Assembly: GCF_011398155.1 (NCBI RefSeq)
Contig: NZ_AP021888.1
Coordinates: 454,001-518,000, forward strand
Length of the DNA stretch: 64,000 nt
DNA from: Thiosulfativibrio zosterae
GTDB taxonomy: Bacteria; Pseudomonadota; Gammaproteobacteria; Thiomicrospirales; Thiomicrospiraceae
Direction of reading: 5' to 3'
Shown here one piece after another: positions 7,201 to 58,600 of this stretch. The number at the start of each line of letters is the position of its first letter. Position 1 is the stretch's first letter. The position numbers and the translations under genes are program-made. Under the pieces are notes generated by a model that was not told where the DNA came from, did not search any database, and was given only the letters and a program-made list of their open reading frames with translations.

Positions 7201-8142
7201 ATGAGTAATCAGCGCCGCCATTTTCGTTATGATGTGAGTGTGCCACTTTTTTTTGAAAAGGTGGACAGCCAAGGGGTGAGTTTGCATGCCAAACGCCGTG
7301 AACTTTTTAAGATAGATGAAGAAAGTCGTTTAGAGTATATAAACGAGGAAGTTGCTCAAATTTTTGAGCGGGTTTTCAGTCAAAACTCCGAAACGGCGAT
7401 GTTGTTTCATGTGCTCAATCATCGTATGGACTTGTTGTTATGGATGCTAGACCATTTGATGGAAGCTAAAGATCCGCGCTTGGCGCATGACTACAAGTTT
7501 AGAATGCGTGAAGACGCAAAACATATGCCGCCAAAGGTCAAAGAAAACTCAACCATCGGTAATTTGATTAAGGGCTTTTATGAGCGAATTGATCAGTATT
7601 TGCTTGAGTTAAAAACCACAGTCAATGAGAGTGTGGATGGCAAAATATTCCTGTTTAAAAATGATTTGCCCTTGCTATTTAATGACCTAGATTATGTGAA
7701 GAACTTAAAGGCTTTGTCAGAGTCGGGCGTTGTACAGGCTCAGGTATTGTGTTTTTTAATTGAAAAATTGAATTTGATTGAAACCATTTACACTCGCCTA
7801 AAATTGGCTTATCAAGGGATTTCGGACCCGAGTGTGTGGCCAGTTGAAAAAATAAACCTCAGTGCGGGTGGTTTTAGTTTGTTAACCAACCAAGAATATC
7901 CGGGTTTTAGTCACTTGAATATTTTTCTCAGTCTTGGGCATGAAGTCATCGTGTGTCATGGCAAGGTGGTATTGAACAAGCCTATGAAATCGGGTGAGTT
8001 TAAATATCGCGTGGCAGTCGAGTTTGAGTTTTTGTCGTCTGAGTATGCGGAATTTATTACACTGTTTGTGCAACGCAAAGAGTTAGAAGAGGCGATGCAA
8101 AAATTCCCCAAAGGCGTGGCTTTGCCTAAGGCAAGCGATTAG
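7201..8142 (+). CDS. PilZ-like c-di-GMP-binding protein with split motif (paralogue A)
   Basis: 313 residues. The two halves of the PilZ signature stand far apart: RRHFR (RxxxR, residues 5-9) right at the N-terminus and NLSAGG (N/DxSxxG, residues 219-224) near the C-terminus, with about 200 mostly helical residues between. The C-terminal 95 residues look like the rest of the PilZ beta-barrel. It has no membrane segment. A paralogue with the same layout lies at 8608-9573 on the opposite strand. Binding of c-di-GMP is inferred from the motifs; the output is unknown. Confidence 0.75.
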   Translation: MSNQRRHFRYDVSVPLFFEKVDSQGVSLHAKRRELFKIDEESRLEYINEEVAQIFERVFSQNSETAMLFHVLNHRMDLLLWMLDHLMEAKDPRLAHDYKFRMREDAKHMPPKVKENSTIGNLIKGFYERIDQYLLELKTTVNESVDGKIFLFKNDLPLLFNDLDYVKNLKALSESGVVQAQVLCFLIEKLNLIETIYTRLKLAYQGISDPSVWPVEKINLSAGGFSLLTNQEYPGFSHLNIFLSLGHEVIVCHGKVVLNKPMKSGEFKYRVAVEFEFLSSEYAEFITLFVQRKELEEAMQKFPKGVALPKASD

Positions 8143-8145
8143 CGT

Positions 8146-8592
8146 TTAAGAGGTTTTTTGGGCGGCGGCTTTCTTTTGTAAATTTTGGGCGTGGCGATAT
8201 TTCAACAACTTCACATCATGCGCACTTTTTAACCAACGCGCAAAATAGGGATATTCTTTTTCAGTCATGGCATACATTTCCGCCAAACTCATCCCCGGCT
8301 TTCCTAGGGCGTAAGCGGCAATTTCCAACAGTTTATTGATATAGCTATTGGGATAGGACAGTGAAATGGTGAAATAACTGAGCTTGGTGAGTATCACCGC
8401 ATCTAGGGTTTCAGTCCATTGTTCAGAAGTTAGCAGAAAACGATTGCGCAAAGCCATAGGCGGCGCAGTTTGGCGCATTTCAACTAAGGGTTTTAGGCGA
8501 TTAAATTTGAGTAAGTCTAGCGCGGCATCTCGATGGGTAAATGGCAATCTATCCATAAACCCTGCCTCAACCATGTGATTCGTTCCAATCAT
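8146..8592 (-). CDS. Hypothetical protein, 148 residues
   Basis: Soluble, basic protein with no recognised family. It sits between the two PilZ-like genes, 15 bp downstream of paralogue B and on the same strand, so it is probably translated from the same mRNA. It converges with paralogue A with only 3 bp between stop codons. The position suggests a link to the PilZ proteins, but the sequence alone shows no function. Confidence 0.7.
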   Translation of the reverse strand: MIGTNHMVEAGFMDRLPFTHRDAALDLLKFNRLKPLVEMRQTAPPMALRNRFLLTSEQWTETLDAVILTKLSYFTISLSYPNSYINKLLEIAAYALGKPGMSLAEMYAMTEKEYPYFARWLKSAHDVKLLKYRHAQNLQKKAAAQKTS

Positions 8593-8607
8593 ATTCTTTT
8601 GATGAAA

Positions 8608-9573
8608 TTAGTCTCTTGGGGTAAGGTCTAATTCCATGCACTCCTTAATTTCAAATTTTTCAATTTCTGATTGCAGATAATTTTGGCTTTTCCCATCCGG
8701 GAACTCAAAATTCAGGGCAATCCGTTCCTTAAAAGTGTCTTCAATGGTGCGTATATCCACAACCGATGCTTCAAAATGTAACACCTTATTGGCATCCGAA
8801 AAGTAAAAGTACACATCCACCTTGTCTTGAAATTTAAAGCGTTTTTCCATCATGATCCCCAAGCCACTGGCGCTGACATTGGCTGTTTGGGTTTTCCAAA
8901 GCTCTGGAAATTGCTTTAAATAGTTATCGTCGATGATTTTGCGATAAACCCCCATGTAAACATCCATTAGATTGGATAGGTGGTGTAAGGCTTGAATCAG
9001 CGGGATTTTGGCAAATTTGGGGTCTTCAAACTTTGCCATGATTTCATCAATTTTGAAACCATAAGGCAAAGAGGCATCTACTTCAAAATGTTCGGGAGTT
9101 GATTTTTCAACACTGCTGACCAGACTGTTTAAAAAAGTCAGGTACTTTTGTTCAATCAATTTAAAGTATTGATAAGTTCTCGGGGAGGATACTTTTAAGG
9201 CTTCAATGGTTTGAAAACCTTTTTGATGGTGCGAAAGTTTTAACCAATATTCCGTTTCAGACTTTGGACTACGCCCTTCAGAAATTAAAGAGGTGCAATA
9301 ACCAAAAAACTCGATAAACTCCATGACTTCTTCAAATAACACGGTCACCAGTTCTTTTTGCTCTTGAATCTTGGAAATCCACAATTTAGTTTTGTAGGTT
9401 TTGTCGCTGATGCTGTGTTTGATAGATGGCGGAAAATAATCAACGCCTGTGGCGTAAATTTCACGATCTCTGATGGATGAACGCGGCAAAATAAACACAC
9501 GCACCGGCATATCTATGCGATACCAGCGGCGAGCATTGCCTTTTTGAAACCATCTGTTCATGAAACGCCTCAT
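8608..9573 (-). CDS. PilZ-like c-di-GMP-binding protein with split motif (paralogue B)
   Basis: 321 residues. It has RRWYR (RxxxR) at residues 15-19 and NVSASG at residues 232-237, the same split arrangement as paralogue A at 7201-8142, with a long helical insert between. The first Met may be at residue 1 or 5. Paralogue A and B converge around a small gene, consistent with an old inverted duplication. Binding of c-di-GMP is inferred; no catalytic domain is present. Confidence 0.75.
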   Translation of the reverse strand: MRRFMNRWFQKGNARRWYRIDMPVRVFILPRSSIRDREIYATGVDYFPPSIKHSISDKTYKTKLWISKIQEQKELVTVLFEEVMEFIEFFGYCTSLISEGRSPKSETEYWLKLSHHQKGFQTIEALKVSSPRTYQYFKLIEQKYLTFLNSLVSSVEKSTPEHFEVDASLPYGFKIDEIMAKFEDPKFAKIPLIQALHHLSNLMDVYMGVYRKIIDDNYLKQFPELWKTQTANVSASGLGIMMEKRFKFQDKVDVYFYFSDANKVLHFEASVVDIRTIEDTFKERIALNFEFPDGKSQNYLQSEIEKFEIKECMELDLTPRD

Positions 9574-9622: not shown

Positions 9623-9886
9623 CTAGTGTACTTCTATGGATAATAAAAGGTTTCGATGGGCTTTGCTTGTCCAGCGATATAGCGTCTTGGCAGAACTTGA
9701 AGCACAGCCCGTGCCACAACCACTGCTACAAGAGGCGCCACTCATTTTTTGAATATGACCTTGCTTGAGTAAAGGTCTGATTAAAGCTTGCAGCGTTTCC
9801 TCAGAAATGTCGAAACGATTTTTGATGTCATCACTGCTCACTTCTAAGCGTTGTTTGATGTAGTTTTTTAAGTCGAGCAAAATCAT
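9623..9886 (-). CDS. feoC: FeoC-like winged-helix iron-transport protein
   Basis: An 87-residue small winged-helix protein with a cysteine-rich loop, C-x3-C-x3-C in CSSGCGTGC. In FeoC proteins this loop holds an Fe-S cluster and the protein tunes FeoB stability or activity. It begins 9 bp after the feoB stop and is the last gene of the feoABC operon. Three clustered cysteines are visible rather than the four of E. coli FeoC. Confidence 0.85.
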   Translation of the reverse strand: MILLDLKNYIKQRLEVSSDDIKNRFDISEETLQALIRPLLKQGHIQKMSGASCSSGCGTGCASSSAKTLYRWTSKAHRNLLLSIEVH

Positions 9887-9895
9887 ACGATAACC

Positions 9896-12221
9896 TTAAA
9901 AGGGCTTGGCCAGCAATTTGCGTGGCCCAAGGTTTTGAGCAATGCGTTTTAAAACAAGCCATAAGGCGATATAAGACAAGGTAATGCCAATCAACCAAAC
10001 CGCCGCGGTGTTGGGGTGTTGAGAATAGGTCATGGCTTGGTAAAAACCTACCGACAGCGTATACCCTAAAAATAGACTCCAACCGGCACTGAAGCTGACC
10101 CAGCGCCATCCCAGTTCCTGTTTAATGGCTCCTAAGGTGGCCACACAAGGGAAGTAAAGCAACACTAAAATCAAATAGGCATAGGCCGCAATGTCGCCAC
10201 CAAAATATTTGGCCATTTTTTCGATGGTGGTGAGAGAAACATCCAGTTCTGCGGCAACCGCTTTGATGTCTTGCACAGTGTCGATATTTTCAAGTCCCAA
10301 TGGATCGTTTAAGTTGGTCACGATACCGCCAATATTGGCGGGTAAGGTGGCAAAGGCTTCTAACAGTGCCCCCCCCAAAATCATAGGGTTCAGGGGTTTC
10401 AGGCTTAGCAGGATGGTCAATGTTTTTATACAGAGAATCCAGCGCACCCACCACCACTTCTTTGGCGAGGAGTCCAGTAATCAGACCCACGGTGGCAGGC
10501 CAGTTTTCTTCGGTAATGCCAAGCGGTTCAACCAATGGGGTCGCGGTTTTGGCGACCGTGCTTAAAACCGAGTTGGATTGATTGTCGTTGCCAAAGCTAC
10601 CATCTGTGCCCATGCTGTTAAAGAAGTTCAAAATTAGCACGATGATGACGATAATTTTGCCGGCATCCATCACAAAACCACGCAGTTTGTTTTTGGTGTT
10701 TAAGACCACATTCAGTACCGCGGGTTTGTGATAAATCGGAAGTTCCATCAAAAGCGGCGGTGCTTCGCCAGGAAGTAGCGTGTGTTTAAGCACCCAAGCG
10801 GTTGCGACCGCTGCCAAAATGCCCAGTAAATAGAGTGAGAAAACTAACAGTGCGGCGTGTTCGGTGAAGAAAGCTGTGGCAAATAAAATATAAACCGTTA
10901 AGCGCGCACTGCAAGACATAAAGGGCGCCATCATGGCCGTCATAATGCGGTCGCGGGCATCGGGCAAGGTGCGGGTAGCTAATACGGCAGGCACATTGCA
11001 ACCAAAGCCGACAACCAACGGAATAAAGGCTTGCCCAGACAGTCCCAAGGCTCGCATGGCACGGTCCATAATCAAGGCGGCGCGTTGCATATAGCCAGTT
11101 TCTTCTAGGATGGATAAAAATAAAAACAGTGCTCCGATGACCGGGATAAAGGTAGCCACCACTTGAATACCTGCCCCAATACCATTGGCTAAAAGGGCAA
11201 TGACCCATTCTGGCGCAGAAACCGATTGTAGCAATGCGGTCGGACCATCCACAAATAAGGCTTGAGCACCCAAATCAAAAAAATCAATAAACGCATTGCC
11301 CACGGTAATGGATAGGGCGAACACCAGATACATTACCCCAAAAAATATCGGCATTCCCCAAATCGGGTGCAAAGCCCAGTGGTCCATCACATCGGTGGTA
11401 TTGCGGGTGAATTTATCGGTGTGGATTAAGCTGGCATGACTGGCATCATGCGCAAATTGAAAATACAAATCTGCGGCAATCAATGCAAGGTCTTCATCGT
11501 AATGCTGCTCAAGTTTTTGCTTTTCGGCTTCGGCATAGCTGCGAATTTCTAAGGGCGCTAAATGCGGTTTGATCAGCGTTTGCAGTGTTTTCCAGCAAGA
11601 CTCTTCGGTTTTGGGTTGTAGGTCACGGATGTTATGCACCGAATGATGCAGGGTTTCGGGCAAATCAAAGTGCAAACTAGACTTATGATTCAGTAAGCTG
11701 GGCAGTTTTTGTTTGAGTTTATCCAGCCCTTGATTAAAGTAAGCCGAAATCGGAATCACTGGGCAACCGAGTTTTTCCGCTAAGAGGTCAACATCAATTT
11801 TCAGGTGGCGCTCTTTGAGCATATCCATGCGGTTTAAAACCACCACCACAGGCAAGCCCATGTGCAACAGTTGGGCGGTTAAAAATAATTGACGCTCTAA
11901 GCTGGTCGCATCTACCACATTTAAGATTAAATCAACCGGTTGGCACTGCAAAAAGTCGCAGGCGACTTTTTCATCTAAGCCAGAGTGGCTAGAGTTTTCT
12001 AGGCTATAAACCCCAGGTAAATCAATCAGTTTATAGTTGTCTTGATTGACTTTAAAGTGGCCGTGCTTTTGCTCAACCGTAACACCTGGCCAGTTGCCGG
12101 TGGTTTGTTGTGCGCCAGTTAAGCGGTTGAAAAGGGTGGTTTTGCCGCAATTGGGATTGCCAATGAGTCCGATTTGAAAGGTGGTTTTTTGGCTGAGTTT
12201 TCGATTGGGTTTTACCGTCAT
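9896..12221 (-). CDS. feoB: Ferrous iron transporter FeoB, apparent +1 frameshift at a G8 run
   Basis: Inner-membrane Fe2+ permease. The first frame (10290-12221) has the G-protein motifs GNPNCGKT, DLPGVYSL and LNRMD, then the Gate membrane segments. It runs off into nonsense after PEPYDFGGG. The correct continuation (GALLEAFATLPANIGG and the last membrane segments) is in the next frame down to 9896. The switch is at a run of eight G on the coding strand (plus positions 10369-10376). With seven G the whole frame is open, giving 774 residues, the normal FeoB length. This is either a sequencing error, phase variation or true loss. The start overlaps feoA (ATGA). Confidence 0.88.
10369..10376 (-). 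other. G8 homopolymer at the feoB frame switch
   Basis: Eight C on the plus strand. Removing one base restores the FeoB frame exactly. Confidence 0.9.
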
Positions 12222-12460
12222 GACAAGGGTTCTACTTTAATAAATTGCGCCAAGCGATCGTCGAGTGCAAAACGACTGCCATCTACGCAGACCACTAAAC
12301 TTTGGTGGCGCTTCATCACGATTTTGATGTGTCCTTGGGTATGAAAGCCTAAATTGACCAAGCGTAATTTGGTGTCCAGTTCGCCGGTGAGCGCAATAAT
12401 GCGTGCGGTTTGCTCTGCCGAGCAGTCGCTTAAGCTGGGATAACTGTCTAGGGTTTTCAT
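12218..12460 (-). CDS. feoA: FeoA, SH3-like ferrous iron transport protein
   Basis: An 80-residue cytoplasmic protein with the FeoA beta-barrel pattern (LVNLGFHTQGHIKIV ... VDGSRFALDDRLAQFI). FeoA proteins bind FeoB and are needed for Fe2+ uptake. It is the first gene of feoABC, and its stop overlaps the feoB start. Two Fur-like 15-mers lie upstream. Confidence 0.92.
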   Translation of the reverse strand: MKTLDSYPSLSDCSAEQTARIIALTGELDTKLRLVNLGFHTQGHIKIVMKRHQSLVVCVDGSRFALDDRLAQFIKVEPLS

Positions 12461-30546: not shown

Positions 30547-33081
30547 CTGCGCGATTTTAGCGAGTAACTCTTTACTCAGTTTTTTAAACGCGACGAGTTT
30601 TTGAGCAAGTAACAGGGTGTTGTTTTGTTCATTGAGGCTGACCAATTCCGCGGCTAAAATATGAGATTTTTGATGTAATGCTTTGATGTCCACCCATTGT
30701 GCTTGGTTTTGTGGGTATTGTAGTTGGTGCTGTTTGTGTTCAATAGAGTTAATCAATTTGCCAAAGCGACATTCATCTTGGTTCAGTTTTGGCACATAGG
30801 GGTAGTCGCCTTTTAGGAAAGCAGTAATGGAAGAAGCCCAGGCCTGATATTCTACCTTGGCAAACAGCAACGAAACTTCGTCATGCGTTTGAAGTTCTGA
30901 GTTAATCCATTCTTGGGGTGGTTGCCAATTGGATAGCCAATTTGGAAAGTCGCTGGCGGGTAAGGGCTTGGAGATGGCATAACCTTGGGCCAACTCGCAG
31001 CCCAGCTGTAATAAGATGTTTCCCTGTTCAATGGTTTCAACGCCTTCTGCCAAAACTTCATGTTGAAAGGCTTCTGCCAGACTGATAATGGCTTCTAATA
31101 TGGAGAGGTCATTGATGTTGTACAACATTTCCTTAACAAAACTTTGATCAATTTTGATTTGATGAATCGGCAATTTTTTGAGGTAAGTTAAAGACGAATA
31201 ACCCGTACCAAAATCATCCAACGCAAAACTGACGCCAAGCTTGTTGCAAAGGTTAATCATATTGGTGGTGTGTTTAAGATCTTCAATTTGGCTGGTTTCT
31301 AAAATTTCAATTTGCAAGTCAGCTGGATTAACGCTTGGGTGCTCTGCGAGTATTTCAGCCAAGCGTTCTGCAAAGTTAGATTGCATTAAATGATGGGCGC
31401 TGATATTGACACTGATTGCAATGGCAATGTTTTTTGTCTTCCAGGTTTCTAGCTGTTTGAGTGCCTGATGGATTACCCATTCCCCCAGCGTAATAGACAG
31501 AGGGTGCTCTTCAATTTGGGGTAAAAAAGTCAGTGGCGATAGTAGCCCTTTGTCTGGATGTTGCCAGCGAATAAGGGCTTCTGCCCCTATAAGATTTCCT
31601 GTTCTCATCTCGACTTTGGGTTGATAGTAGAGTTCAAATTCACCCATATTTAAACCATTGGAAATTTGGTCTAGGTATTCATAGTGGGCTTTCAGGTTAT
31701 CGTTCAGTTGTAGATTAAAAAACTCAAAACGGTTTTTGCCTGCAATTTTGGCTTGATACATCGCTTGATCAGCCTGACGCATCAGTTGGTCTGCATCTAC
31801 AGTGATTTCTTGTGGAAATTGCGTTAACCCAATACTGGCAGTGACATTGATTTTAACTTTTTTGATTTGAATTGGCAGCGCAACCGTTTCTAGCAGGCGC
31901 TTGATTAAGGGGACGGCATCATTGATATGCTTGAGGTTGGGCATGAGAATGACAAACTCATCACCACCAATTCTAGCGAGCGTATCGCCTTCACGGAGGA
32001 CTTTTTGCATGGTTTTCGACAGGGTGACTAACAGCAAATCTCCTTGATCATGACCATAGTTATCATTGATTTCTTTAAAACCATCTAAATCCAAGAAGGC
32101 TAATACCATCGGATTGAATGTGCGCTGTGTCAATATCATTGCTTGATTAATGCGGTCAGCCAGCAGTGTGCGATTAGGCAGGCCTGTCAGTGGGTCAAAG
32201 TGAGCCAGATTTTTAAGTTGTAATTCACGCTGTTTGACCAAAGAATTATCGCTGTAGAGTGCAATATAGCGTTGTACTTCATTCACATGATTCACGATGG
32301 TTGTGATGTGCATAATCACTTCTATCAGTTCACCATTTTTACGACGGTTAATAATTTCACCTTTCCAAGAGCCTTCTTTTTCTAGGCGATTCCAAAGTTG
32401 CTCATAAAAAGATTGGCAGTTTTCACTTGAACTGAGTATTTTTGGGTTTTGCCCGATGACTTCTTCGGCTTGATATCCGGTGATGGTGGTGAAAGAAGGG
32501 TTCACTTTTAGAATGTTATTTTGCGCATCGGTAATCATAATACCTTCACCCGCAGCGCTGAAAAAACTCGCGGCTAATTTTAGCTGTTCTTCGCTCTTTT
32601 TTTGCTCTGAAATATCTTGTATGACTAAGCGAAAAACGGTTTGGGATGCGTTGTTAAATGAGGTCGCCAATGTTAATTTTGCCCAAAAAATACTTTGATC
32701 TTTTTTGAGTAAGCGCAGATCGCAAGTTTGGGTTGAGTCTAGCTGTGCAATGACTTTTTGGCGGCAGAAATAATAAGTATCTTGGTCTTCTGAAAAAATG
32801 TAATTGGTGATGGCGGTATTAACCAGCGATTCTTCAGTTTGGTCAAGTAAGGCGAGGGTGGTCAAATTGGCTTCTAAAATTTGGCCCTTTTCATTAAGTG
32901 AACAATAGCCAACAGGCGCATTTTTAAAGAGTTCTTGGTAGCGGTTTTTGGTGGCATTTAAGGCTTCTTGAATATGCTGAAGCTCTTCGTTTTGAAACTC
33001 TAATTCAATTTGATGCACTTGCAGTTCGTGCAGCGCTTCCTCGAGCTTAGCGGGCGAATCTAAGCCTTTTATGTTTTCCAA
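30541..33081 (-). CDS. PAS-PAS-GGDEF-EAL protein with C-terminal CZB-like domain
   Basis: 846 residues from a TTG at 33081, but coding clearly extends upstream to 33174 (see the site at 33171-33185). The N-terminal helix LHELQVHQIELEFQNEEL is typical of soluble PAS proteins. Two PAS domains lie near 45-165 and 165-285. The GGDEF domain has intact GGDEF. The EAL domain has EALIRW, EILETSQ and DDFGTGYSSLTYL, so both c-di-GMP synthesis and breakdown are possible. The tail (about 735-846) has ECRFGKL and LHQKSHILAAEL, like zinc-binding CZB domains. It is soluble. Confidence 0.9.
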   Translation of the reverse strand: MENIKGLDSPAKLEEALHELQVHQIELEFQNEELQHIQEALNATKNRYQELFKNAPVGYCSLNEKGQILEANLTTLALLDQTEESLVNTAITNYIFSEDQDTYYFCRQKVIAQLDSTQTCDLRLLKKDQSIFWAKLTLATSFNNASQTVFRLVIQDISEQKKSEEQLKLAASFFSAAGEGIMITDAQNNILKVNPSFTTITGYQAEEVIGQNPKILSSSENCQSFYEQLWNRLEKEGSWKGEIINRRKNGELIEVIMHITTIVNHVNEVQRYIALYSDNSLVKQRELQLKNLAHFDPLTGLPNRTLLADRINQAMILTQRTFNPMVLAFLDLDGFKEINDNYGHDQGDLLLVTLSKTMQKVLREGDTLARIGGDEFVILMPNLKHINDAVPLIKRLLETVALPIQIKKVKINVTASIGLTQFPQEITVDADQLMRQADQAMYQAKIAGKNRFEFFNLQLNDNLKAHYEYLDQISNGLNMGEFELYYQPKVEMRTGNLIGAEALIRWQHPDKGLLSPLTFLPQIEEHPLSITLGEWVIHQALKQLETWKTKNIAIAISVNISAHHLMQSNFAERLAEILAEHPSVNPADLQIEILETSQIEDLKHTTNMINLCNKLGVSFALDDFGTGYSSLTYLKKLPIHQIKIDQSFVKEMLYNINDLSILEAIISLAEAFQHEVLAEGVETIEQGNILLQLGCELAQGYAISKPLPASDFPNWLSNWQPPQEWINSELQTHDEVSLLFAKVEYQAWASSITAFLKGDYPYVPKLNQDECRFGKLINSIEHKQHQLQYPQNQAQWVDIKALHQKSHILAAELVSLNEQNNTLLLAQKLVAFKKLSKELLAKIAQL

Positions 33082-36977: not shown

Positions 36978-37943
36978 TTAGTGTGTGCGATTAACTGCTA
37001 GGTCGGCAAGTGATAACAGCGCCACTTTAAAGTCGGATGCTTCTAATGGTTCTAGTGCTTGTTTGGCTTTGTCGGCCTCTTGATGGGCAATTTTATAAGT
37101 GTGTGCAATGGCGCCAGAGCGTTCAATGATTTCGGTCACTTCTGCCAATAAATTTAAACCTTCGGTTTCAATGGCACGGCGAATAATGTCTTGGTCTGCT
37201 GCTGAGCCAGTTTCTAGCACATAAATCAATGGCAAGGTTGGTTTGCCTTCGGCGAGATCGTCGCCAATGTTTTTGCCCAACTCTTCTTCATTAGCGGTGT
37301 AGTCGAGTGCATCGTCAACCAATTGGAAAGCGGCCCCCAAATGTTTACCGTAAGCAATAAAAGCGGCTTCGAGTTCTGGGCGATTGCTTAAAACAGGGCC
37401 CATTTGGGTTGCGGCTTCAAACAGCTTGGCAGTTTTGCGGTGAATGACTTCCATGTAGCGTTCGGTGGTGGTGTCTGCGTCATGGCAATTGAGCAATTGC
37501 AAGACTTCACCCGCGGCGATCACATTAGTGGCTTCAGACATGACCTGCATGATTTTCATTAGGCCAGGTTCAACCATCATTTCAAAAGAACGCGAATATA
37601 AAAAATCCCCAACCAAAACCGAAGCAGCATTGCCCCATACTTCGTTGGCGGTTTTGTTGCCACGGCGCGTGTCGGATTCATCGACCACATCATCATGCAA
37701 TAGGGTAGATGTGTGAATAAATTCTATGACAGCCGCCATCGTTAAATGATCTTTACCTTGATAGCCGCAAGCTCTGGCAGACAAGAGCACTAAAAGTGGG
37801 CGCAAGCGTTTGCCGCCACTGTTAATAATATAGTGTCCAATTTGATTAATAAGAACGACATCAGAAGCAAGTTTGGTGAGGATTAAATGATCCGTGGCTT
37901 GTATGTCTTCTAGGATGAGTTGGCGAATATCAGCTAAGGTCAT
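36978..37943 (-). CDS. ispB: Octaprenyl diphosphate synthase
   Basis: 321-residue all-helical prenyltransferase that makes the octaprenyl chain of ubiquinone or menaquinone from FPP and IPP. The first aspartate-rich motif is HDDVVDESDTRRG and the second is QLVDDALDY. It is divergent from rplU, the standard gammaproteobacterial order ispB-rplU-rpmA-obgE. Confidence 0.95.
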   Translation of the reverse strand: MTLADIRQLILEDIQATDHLILTKLASDVVLINQIGHYIINSGGKRLRPLLVLLSARACGYQGKDHLTMAAVIEFIHTSTLLHDDVVDESDTRRGNKTANEVWGNAASVLVGDFLYSRSFEMMVEPGLMKIMQVMSEATNVIAAGEVLQLLNCHDADTTTERYMEVIHRKTAKLFEAATQMGPVLSNRPELEAAFIAYGKHLGAAFQLVDDALDYTANEEELGKNIGDDLAEGKPTLPLIYVLETGSAADQDIIRRAIETEGLNLLAEVTEIIERSGAIAHTYKIAHQEADKAKQALEPLEASDFKVALLSLADLAVNRTH

Positions 37944-55639: not shown

Positions 55640-58600
55640 TATGTTGCACAAGTTTCAAGTGGATTCGTTAAACGAACGCTTATTAGCGGGATTTTTGGTG
55701 GTGGTGCTCTGGTTGTTTGGCATGGCCTCTATTTACAATAACTTTCAAACGCACGAAAAACTCTATTTAGACAAGCAGGGTTCTACCCAAGGGGTTGCTT
55801 GGAAAGCGGTTGAATTGATTCACCGCACGGGCATAGATGCCTATTTCAACACCCAAATTAATACGCCAGAACTGCACCAATTATTGCGGGATGCACAAAA
55901 TCCAAATATGGAGAAGATGGCGCGCTTAAATCTTTATCGTCAGCTTTATCCCGCCTATCAAAAACTCACCCAGCAAGGCATCAGTATTCTGCATTTTCAT
56001 ACGCCAGAATTGCGCAGTTTTTTGCGCTTTCACAGCCCCGAAAAATTTGGGTGCGACTTGTCTAAAGTTCGTCCTTCTTTAAAGGTGGTTAAATCAAGTC
56101 GCCAGCCAGTGCATGGGTTTGAAGTGGGGTTGCTCTATTCGGGGTATCGCCATCTTTATCCCATTGTCGATCAAGGCGAATATTTGGGCAGCGTGGAATT
56201 GTCACAGCCATTTGAGTCGTTACGCCAAGAAATCAGTCGTTTAAACAGTGAAAAAGAATATGCCTTGATACATCAAAAATCAGTTTTGATTGATAAGCGT
56301 TTATTTGGATTGGGGCATTTGCTGCAAGACAGTGTGTTTTCCAAAGACTGGTTGGAAGAAGACCCGTTAAGAATTTTGCCTGGTGCAGCCTCCATGATGT
56401 CGGTGGATATGCAGCAAGGTGCCAAAAAAATGTTTGCGGTGCCCAGGTTGCAGGCCAATCTTAAAAATGGACAGCCATTTTCGATGAGTGTGCGGTTAGA
56501 TGGCCATTATCGGGTGTTTGTGTTTACCCCTATCCAAGACATCGAAAATAAAAATACCGCTTATTTGGTGTCTTTTGCCAACGCTGAAGAACTCGACTTA
56601 AGAATGCAAGAAGCTGTTTGGTATGGCGCTGGCCTAACGCTGATGATGGCGTTACTGACCATTTTGTTATTTCAATGGATAGCGACCAAACGTTCCCAAG
56701 AAGCCAGTTTGCAGTTCTTAGAAAAAATTAACGATACCATGCGTGAAGCCTTGTATGTGGTGGATGAGACAGGGCGCATTATTGAGATTAATGCGTCTGC
56801 CTTAGCCTTTTTAGGGATGGAAGAACGCCAAGTGATTGGGCGTTCGGCCTTAGATTTATTTTTACCCAAATTGAGCGCAGACACATTGGCAGACATCTAT
56901 CCCTCGAGTCACCATGCGCTAAGTCGCAGTCGTCAGGATTTAGAGTCTTTGTGTGTGTTGGATGAGCCCTTTATGGGCGAATATACGCTGATTCAAGCTG
57001 GGCAAAAAGTGGTGTGGGTGCATTTGTCGAGCCAGCCGATTGTTGCTCATAAAAAATTCATTGGCAAGGTCGTGGTGTTTCGCGATATTTCGGTCGAGCG
57101 CAGCCATAAAGAACAATTGCGGGTAGCGGCGGCTGCGTTTGAGACGCAAGAAGGTATTTTAATTACCGATGCCGCCGGCAAGATTGTCCGGGTGAACCAA
57201 GCCTTTAGCGCTTTAACCGGTTATGACGCCGAAGAAATTATTGGCCAGACCCCTGCGATTTTAAATTCGGGCAAACAAGATGCCGCGTTCTATCAGACCA
57301 TGTGGCAGGCACTGTTAACCCATAAGTGTTGGCAGGGTGAAATTTGGAACCGTCGTAAAAATGGTGAACTCTATTTGGAATGGCTCACCATTACCGCTGT
57401 GGCAAACTCCAGTGGTCAGGTCACCGAATATGTGGCGATTTTCTCGGATATTACCGAGCAAAAAAGAGCGCAAGACGAAATTGTGAAACTGGCTTTTTAC
57501 GACCCCTTAACGGAACTGCCCAATCGTCGTCTATTAGGCGAGCGTTTGACCCATGCGTTAATCAGCAGTGAACGCCAGCGCAATTATGGGGCGGTAATAT
57601 TTATTGACCTAGATAACTTCAAACAGCTCAACGATACCAAGGGGCATTCGGTGGGCGATATGTTGTTATTAGAAGTGGCCAAACGCTTAAAAGCCTCGGT
57701 GCGTGAGATGGATACGGTGGCGCGCTTGGGTGGCGATGAGTTTGTGATTTTATTAGAGTCTTTGGGCACTAAAGAATTAGACGCCATGGATTCCGTGGAG
57801 TTAATTGCTTACAAAATATTGCAGGCGTTCCAAAGCCCGTTTTTATTGGACTCAGGCGAACATCGCACCACGCCGAGTTTGGGCGTAGAAATTTTTCAAG
57901 GACAAACGCTGAGCACTGAGCAAATATTGCAACATGCCGATGTGGCCATGTATCAAGCCAAACAAAGCGGTCGTAATACGGCCTGTTATTTTGACCCAGA
58001 AATGCAACAGCACATTGAAAATGCTTTGTTATTAGAAGAAGACTTGCACCGAGATCAAGCGCTAGGTTTTCAACAGTTGGAACTCTATTACCAGCCGCAA
58101 GTGGATGTATTCGGCAAGGTGCAGTCAGTTGAGGCTTTAATTCGTTGGCAGCATCCGGTACGCGGCACAGTTTCGCCTTTAGAGTTTATTCCCATGATTG
58201 AAAAAAATGGCCAAATTTTGGCGGTAGGGCTTTGGGTGATTCGCCAGGCCTGTGCGCAATTGCTGCTGTGGGCGCAACATCCAAAGACGGCACACTTGAC
58301 TTTGGCGGTCAATGTCAGTGCAAAACAGCTTGCAGACCCAAGTTTTGTCGATCAAATCACGCAAATTTTATACGATACCGGTGCTCGTCCTGAGTTGTTA
58401 AAAATTGAGTTGACCGAAAGTTCGGTGGTCGAAAATGTCGAACAAGCCATTAAAACCATGCAAGCCTTGCGTGCTTTAGGCCTAGAGTTGTCGATGGATG
58501 ATTTTGGAACGGGTTATTCGTCTTTGTCTTATTTAAAACGCTTGCCGCTCAGTCAGCTCAAAATAGATCAAGCCTTTGTGCGAGATTTAGAAAGCCAGGC

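Follow-up and report, generated by a model that had tools for sequence, protein, structure and literature searches.

What kind of PilZ protein keeps the two halves of its ligand motif some 200 residues apart, and to which of two such proteins does the gene lying between them belong? The question is raised by a locus of Thiosulfativibrio zosterae (genome G000), within the 64-kb stretch of DNA that was analyzed here and is called the window; coordinates without a genome or locus handle are positions in the window.

Motif and fold of A and B

Reading of the open reading frames at 7201-9573 defines two convergent genes with a third in the gap between them. Gene A (7201..8142, + strand) encodes 313 aa and gene B (8608..9573, − strand) 321 aa; both products are stand-alone PilZ proteins with a long helical insert, as judged from the reading frames, Pfam and AlphaFold2. 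The first-pass annotation had described them as a convergent PilZ-like pair with a 200-residue insert between the motif halves, and so they proved to be. It had also placed a third gene between the two. This gene, X (8146..8592, − strand), does exist as an ORF of 148 aa with no match in Pfam or NCBIfam at E ≤ 1, but it is better assigned to B: it lies on the same strand, downstream of B, and starts 15 bases after it, so that B-X looks like one unit. A begins 13 bases past a carboxylesterase-type gene. The neighboring genes match esterase, a lysA-type PLP decarboxylase and FeoC (Pfam) and give no clue to function. Beyond them a feoB-like gene (9932-12227) is split between two reading frames: compared with a relative, 12227-10398 covers residues 4-620 and 10378-9932 covers residues 623-771; this may be a true frameshift or a sequence error.

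The RxxxR half of the motif falls at residues 5-9 of A (RRHFR; 7213..7227, +), where R5, R6 and R9 are invariant in A-type alignment A4, and at residues 15-19 of B (RRWYR; 9517..9531, −), where R15, R16 and R19 are invariant in alignments A3 and A6. The NxSxxG half is found at residues 219-224 of A (NLSAGG; 7855..7872, +; N219, S221 and G224 invariant in A4) and 232-237 of B (NVSASG; 8863..8880, −; N232, S234 and G237 invariant in A3). The distance between the halves is 214 residues in A and 217 in B; it is 26 in one canonical PilZ protein of the same genome and 86-104, or about 97, in 13 of 16 shorter relatives of ~200 aa.

That the split motif is not a product of chance is evident from its retention: both halves are kept, at a spacing of 201-220, in 102 of 108 full-length members, A and B counted (41/44 A-type, 55/58 B-type and 6/6 X-B fused members). 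These members come from the fetched loci after removal of near-identical tails, and a long ORF at L101 was placed in the short class because its length is owed to an upstream extension. The six failing members depart from the pattern [D/N]x[S/A]xxG, and not every member need therefore bind c-di-GMP. Across an alignment of 34 A and B sequences the motif residues are among the few columns that are invariant or nearly so. RxxxR and NxSxxG motifs predict c-di-GMP binding, a relationship established for PilZ; from their conservation in sequence, A and B are putative c-di-GMP binders.

Pfam PilZ (PF07238, cut-off 22.5 bits) accepts B with 32.7 bits and A only just, with 22.7. The alignment runs from profile position 19 onward in both, the RxxxR end of the profile being displaced, and a six-frame search of the genome with the same model gave four matches at E ≤ 0.001, A not among them. 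Single-protein sequence searches of PDB returned no PilZ match for A or B; profile searches returned weak PilZ matches for B (best E 0.0051) and none for A.

The first-pass annotation had proposed structure prediction as a check, with a model lacking the PilZ barrel as the refuting outcome; the barrel is present in both models. AlphaFold2, run on family alignments of 27 (B) and 16 (A) sequences, gave mean pLDDT values of 89.3 and 87.2, and predicts in each protein strand 1 (residues 10-21 in A, 20-30 in B), the helical insert, strands 2-6 and a C-terminal helix. Top Foldseek matches are PilZ proteins (MotI, tPilZ XCC6012, MrkH, YcgR and Alg44), although the best E values are modest (3.3e-4 for A, 1.1e-3 for B). 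In VIA-align, MotI is the top row for both models (A: Z 13.5, rmsd 2.5, 105 aligned; B: Z 12.1, rmsd 2.6, 106 aligned), tPilZ structures 3PH1/3RQA score similarly (A: Z 11.5, rmsd 2.6, 107 aligned; B: Z 11.8, rmsd 2.4, 109 aligned), and c-di-GMP-bound Alg44 and YcgR give Z 9.5-11.9. In the top rows the alignment begins between residues 2 and 5 in A and between 11 and 14 in B, and so includes the RxxxR end. As modeled, then, A and B each have a six-stranded PilZ barrel with a C-terminal helix. The N-terminal tails are poorly predicted (pLDDT below 50 at A 1-6 and B 1-14; block means of 55 for A 1-10 and 57 for B 11-20, the part carrying or bordering RxxxR), and the position of RxxxR at the binding site is for this reason only tentative in the models.

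The helical insert and its precedents

The insert lies between strands 1 and 2 of each model: residues 22-214 of A (7264..7842, +), mostly helical, and 31-227 of B (8893..9483, −), helical. Its length is about 193 residues in A and 197 in B, with seven helices of at least four residues, and the helical stretch runs from 32 to 208 in A and from 49 to 221 in B. An insert helical in both proteins and similar in length is what had been supposed from the letters alone.

BLASTP aligns only the barrels of A and B (92 columns, 21% identity, E 7e-7), and profile-profile comparison aligns 293 columns (99.5%, E 2.5e-22). Sequence comparison thus identifies the two as paralogues, as had been claimed, though old and distant ones. 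Profiles of the insert alone also align (167 columns, score 40.9, E 1.1e-5; the highest control score was 22.0 over 20 column shuffles, and the reversed control scored 14.7), which marks the inserts as homologous; because they align without the barrel, the insert probably predates the split of A and B. Insert-only matches to the short relatives are weak (A: E 5.9e-4 at 29% probability; B: E 9.3e-3 at 4.4%), and the alignment of the A-type profile with six short relatives continues through the last insert helix. Profile comparison of the insert with X showed no homology. A barrel tree with the short relatives as outgroup has few columns, and the outgroup does not fall on one side of any branch, so the order of events is not read from it. 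Helical-bundle structures matched by the insert in VIA-align (for example 2cmr, Z 11.4 for B and 8.2 for A) lie inside the bundle noise stated for the tool and were rejected.

Insertions at this place have precedents. The solved structure of tPilZ carries a pair of additional helices that follow strand 1 and precede strand 2 (PMC3131395), the insert being given as about 200 bp in PMC11800159. The latter source also describes the spirochaete YcgR-GAZ, with a GAF-like domain after strand 1 and RxxxR and with measured c-di-GMP binding, and it mentions that in other lineages certain YcgR-like proteins carry between one and three helices at that point, several of these proteins keeping the motifs. 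The strand 1-2 loop is, on the evidence of tPilZ and spirochaete YcgR, a known insertion site. The idea of a distinct PilZ architecture is supported by the models, the VIA-align comparisons and the 102 motif-bearing members, but it is not wholly new (PMC3131395, PMC11800159). As far as our searches go, the novelty lies in an insert of seven helices that leaves both motif halves intact, and in X as a partner. The spacing series, from 26 through about 97 to about 215, marks the strand 1-2 loop as a repeated site for new outputs.

XCC6012 (3RQA, 3PH1) resembles A and B in being a stand-alone PilZ protein whose additional helices come between the first two strands, but these are two long helices, whereas A and B have seven in about 190 residues; and XCC6012 is without both complete c-di-GMP motifs (PMC3131395), while A and B keep both halves. 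YcgR-GAZ resembles A and B in its conserved motif and in having an extra domain follow RxxxR and strand 1; its insert is GAF-like and it has an N-terminal PilZN, whereas the insert of A and B is nearly all helix and loop and there is no N-terminal domain. YcgR, MotI and FlgZ, too, have the PilZ barrel with motifs, but they carry PilZN, whereas strand 1 is preceded by just 9 residues in A and 19 in B. By analogy, X may fill the PilZN role in trans.

Distribution and the partner gene

Whole-genome searches covered the class of the window (Gammaproteobacteria). Among 369 class genomes the B-type profile matched three (E ≤ 1e-6) and the X profile three, all in the window's own family, which is one of sulfur bacteria. 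The A-type profile matched 17 (E ≤ 1e-5), of which three belong to that family; of the 14 matches outside it, 11 comprise the barrel only and three the barrel plus the end of the insert, and their ORFs are 197-223 aa long, with one of 373. Within this sample the long-insert form and X are matched solely in the window's family, sampling and fast first filters leaving absence elsewhere unproven. Of the 58 genomes in the order sample, 57 give a match to the A query and 52 to the B query, in part by way of the common barrel; X is present in 57 of the 58, and in 61 of 62 family genomes.

A mixed A and B alignment was too diverse for scanning the named genome collection; a B-type alignment was used, and the scan is therefore centered on B. 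It returned 25 loci, labeled Thiomicrorhabdus, Hydrogenovibrio and Thiomicrospira, with some metagenome assemblies labeled Piscirickettsiaceae, Thiotrichales or Gammaproteobacteria. B and X adjoin at all 25 (B lies in two ORFs at L076), and A is also present at 16 (cut by a contig end at L073). By coordinates, the A-X-B arrangement occurs in 27 of the 58 order genomes: the three-gene cluster that the first-pass annotation suggested seeking elsewhere does recur. Among titles and abstract starts, literature on Thiomicrospira and PilZ describes no such family, nor did a wider search, outside which the PilZ-domain review by Galperin and Chou fell; a search on Hydrogenovibrio and PilZ found no paper.

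The 58 genomes contain 114 copies of X: 72 near B-type genes, four near A-type genes, seven fused and 31 alone, where "near" means within 600 bases on the same strand and "fused" means inside an ORF of more than 470 aa. Hence 76 of the 114 adjoin long-insert PilZ genes. When 19 X members were compared with Pfam, nine families were matched at E ≤ 1, the best being a ubiquitin-binding model (five members, E 0.00047), which was taken for chance.

ORFs of 472-487 aa that match the B query occur in 11 of the 58 genomes, and in the six fused proteins that were read, X is N-terminal and the PilZ part comes after it. In all six instances RRxxR falls at residues 148-154, 22-25 residues past the last tryptophan of the X part. 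One genome (G025) has a similar pair in two separate ORFs with an overlap of a few bases; the X of this pair clusters with the fused copies (SH-aLRT 99).

A tree of X, built from few columns with long branches and without bootstrap, places 19 stand-alone copies and the four A-adjacent copies on one branch (SH-aLRT 99). The tree took 19 of the 31 stand-alone copies (20 fetched, one dropped as a duplicate), and the 12 absent from it are assumed to be akin to A's partner; 11 further rows marked as alone are B-linked copies whose B lies off the fetched piece or is broken. With rows sorted by eye, 35 of the 45 genomes that have an A-type gene also have a stand-alone or A-tandem X, and none of the 13 that lack an A-type gene does (Fisher p 3.6e-7, a value that ignores the kinship of the genomes). 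Taken together, gene neighborhood, fusion and the X tree suggest that each receptor type has its own X. The third X-like gene of this genome (G000:C1:165829-166209; L153:4827-5246), which stands alone beside a phosphoribosyltransferase gene, is likely to be the partner of A.

Several local variants were observed. The genome of the window has a second B-X pair (G000:C1:817402-818760; L116:2408-3772), between a class-V aminotransferase gene and a Mur ligase gene. Two genomes (G011 and G014) have a tandem of two B-type genes upstream of a single X (L037, L048, L066, L074), and in G045 B is split into two ORFs (L011:2914-3858). The stand-alone X of G029 adjoins transposase-type ORFs with an integrase core (L155:5425-6608) and is also near what by eye is a shortened phosphoribosyltransferase-like ORF.

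Readings of the system and its possible output

In YcgR the domain N-terminal to RxxxR is moved by c-di-GMP. The N-terminal domain of VCA0042 is likewise moved (PMC3131395). Against this background we favor, with some confidence, the view that A and B are lineage-specific stand-alone receptors for c-di-GMP and that each functions together with its cognate X protein, which docks next to RxxxR. The N-terminal RxxxR and the NxSxxG turn would between them hold the ligand. B would pair with the adjacent X and A with an X elsewhere in the genome; X would dock at or beside the RxxxR end, since the fused X-B proteins place it there in cis; and ligand binding would alter the presentation of X, of the helical insert, or of both. 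The system would then correspond to YcgR, with its parts divided between two genes. The pairs and fusions of X with PilZ also offer a testable partner for a family to which, for the window copy, neither Pfam nor NCBIfam gives a name.

That receptor and X go as far as to constitute a new two-protein c-di-GMP effector, with a barrel split by the helical domain and an obligate X docking at the RxxxR end and performing the YcgR N-terminal role in trans in paralogue-specific pairs, is a proposal we make tentatively: it is possible, without being what we would expect.

A different reading, which we think rather unlikely, sees A and B as enlarged tPilZ proteins, the insert being mainly an oligomerization scaffold, as in XCC6012 and the flagellar tPilZ of Campylobacter (tPilZ forms a parallel coiled-coil tetramer), and X a secondary subunit, and the whole perhaps a structural piece of the flagellar motor and not a switch. 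The insertion site is that of tPilZ (PMC3131395), tPilZ chains are among the best structural matches in both Foldseek and VIA-align, the relatives outside the family are mostly of ~200 aa with the intermediate spacing noted above in 13 of 16, and the A-type alignment with short relatives runs on through the last insert helix. The short PilZ gene of this genome, moreover, lies near FlgN and FlgA genes, and a Campylobacter tPilZ apparently acts at the flagellar machinery without c-di-GMP (PMC12943098; a flagellar tPilZ of Campylobacter is also cited in PMC11870540). The weakness of the insert-only match to the short proteins tells against the reading, and the retention in A and B of motifs that XCC6012 lacks in complete form argues for a ligand and so against it as well. 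Nor did PF16823, which we take to be the tPilZ model, match A or B at E ≤ 1; four short relatives scanned with it were also unmatched, which makes the comparison a narrow one.

The first-pass annotation had itself suggested that ligand binding closes a helical insert; in fuller form, c-di-GMP binding would close the insert over the ligand and the insert would be the moving output domain. The insert does join the motif halves in sequence, and contacts of RxxxR could move it; but RxxxR is carried by the N-terminal tail and not by the insert, and it is at this tail that the fusions put X. Tandem genes, X-B fusions and the X tree favor docking of X at the RxxxR end at least as much as closure of the insert, which we regard as improbable. 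Equally doubtful is a degenerate PilZ fold that has lost c-di-GMP binding, like the type IV pilus protein PilZ: the six off-pattern members and A's bare passage of the Pfam cut-off would suit it, but the near-invariance of the motif residues and the 102 members with both halves do not.

For the preferred reading, of receptors acting with cognate X proteins, an output on flagellar motility or other surface behavior may be envisaged, and the pertinent observations are genomic. This genome has 65 GGDEF matches in 2.6 Mb and few PilZ matches (the four reported above), which makes a receptor of the lineage's own making a good place to seek output. Flagellin and X are each missing from a single genome among the 58 of the order, and in both cases this is G001, which also has no PF07238 match and no match to the A or B query. 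G001 has one GGDEF match, versus 21-65 in seven other genomes searched, and three MotA_ExbB matches, versus 5-8 in the seven others, motor and ExbB-type proteins not being separated in these counts. This joint loss ties the system to flagella or to c-di-GMP, but it is a single event and leaves loss of flagella and loss of c-di-GMP signaling inseparable. With flagellin present in the other 57 genomes, co-occurrence says almost nothing beyond this case.

A second pointer comes from G009, where a B-X-like pair lies directly after flagellin genes, fliD, fliS and a FliT-like ORF of 105 aa (26.1 bits, below the FliT cut-off of 29.5). The setting may be accidental, since in G008 and G051 the related pairs have as neighbor an aminotransferase gene resembling the one in G009, but no flagellar genes. 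A comparable arrangement is known from Xanthomonas oryzae, where the atypical PilZ gene flgZ is co-transcribed with fliS and fliTX (PMC5550985): there, as in G009, an atypical PilZ gene and a small-protein gene stand beside fliS. Two points differ: Pfam gives X no FliT match, and the FliT-like ORF of G009 is distinct from X. The Pfam searches lend no support to X being a FliT, the window copy having no match and FliT being absent from the matches of the 19 members. A flagellar output of the system is plausible, if weakly so.

The promoter sites sought in the window add little. No sigma-28-like site was found near A or B; one at 37069 has three mismatches, is far away and is at chance level. 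A sigma-54-like site with one mismatch (9702-9716, −) lies ~130 bases upstream of B, inside the FeoC-like ORF. The window as a whole has 16 sigma-54-like sites with at most one mismatch where 8.3 are expected, a count that none of 100 shuffles reached, and with so many nothing is drawn from the one upstream of B. The window also contains at least three GGDEF matches, at 218-676, 31729-32205 and 57492-57977.
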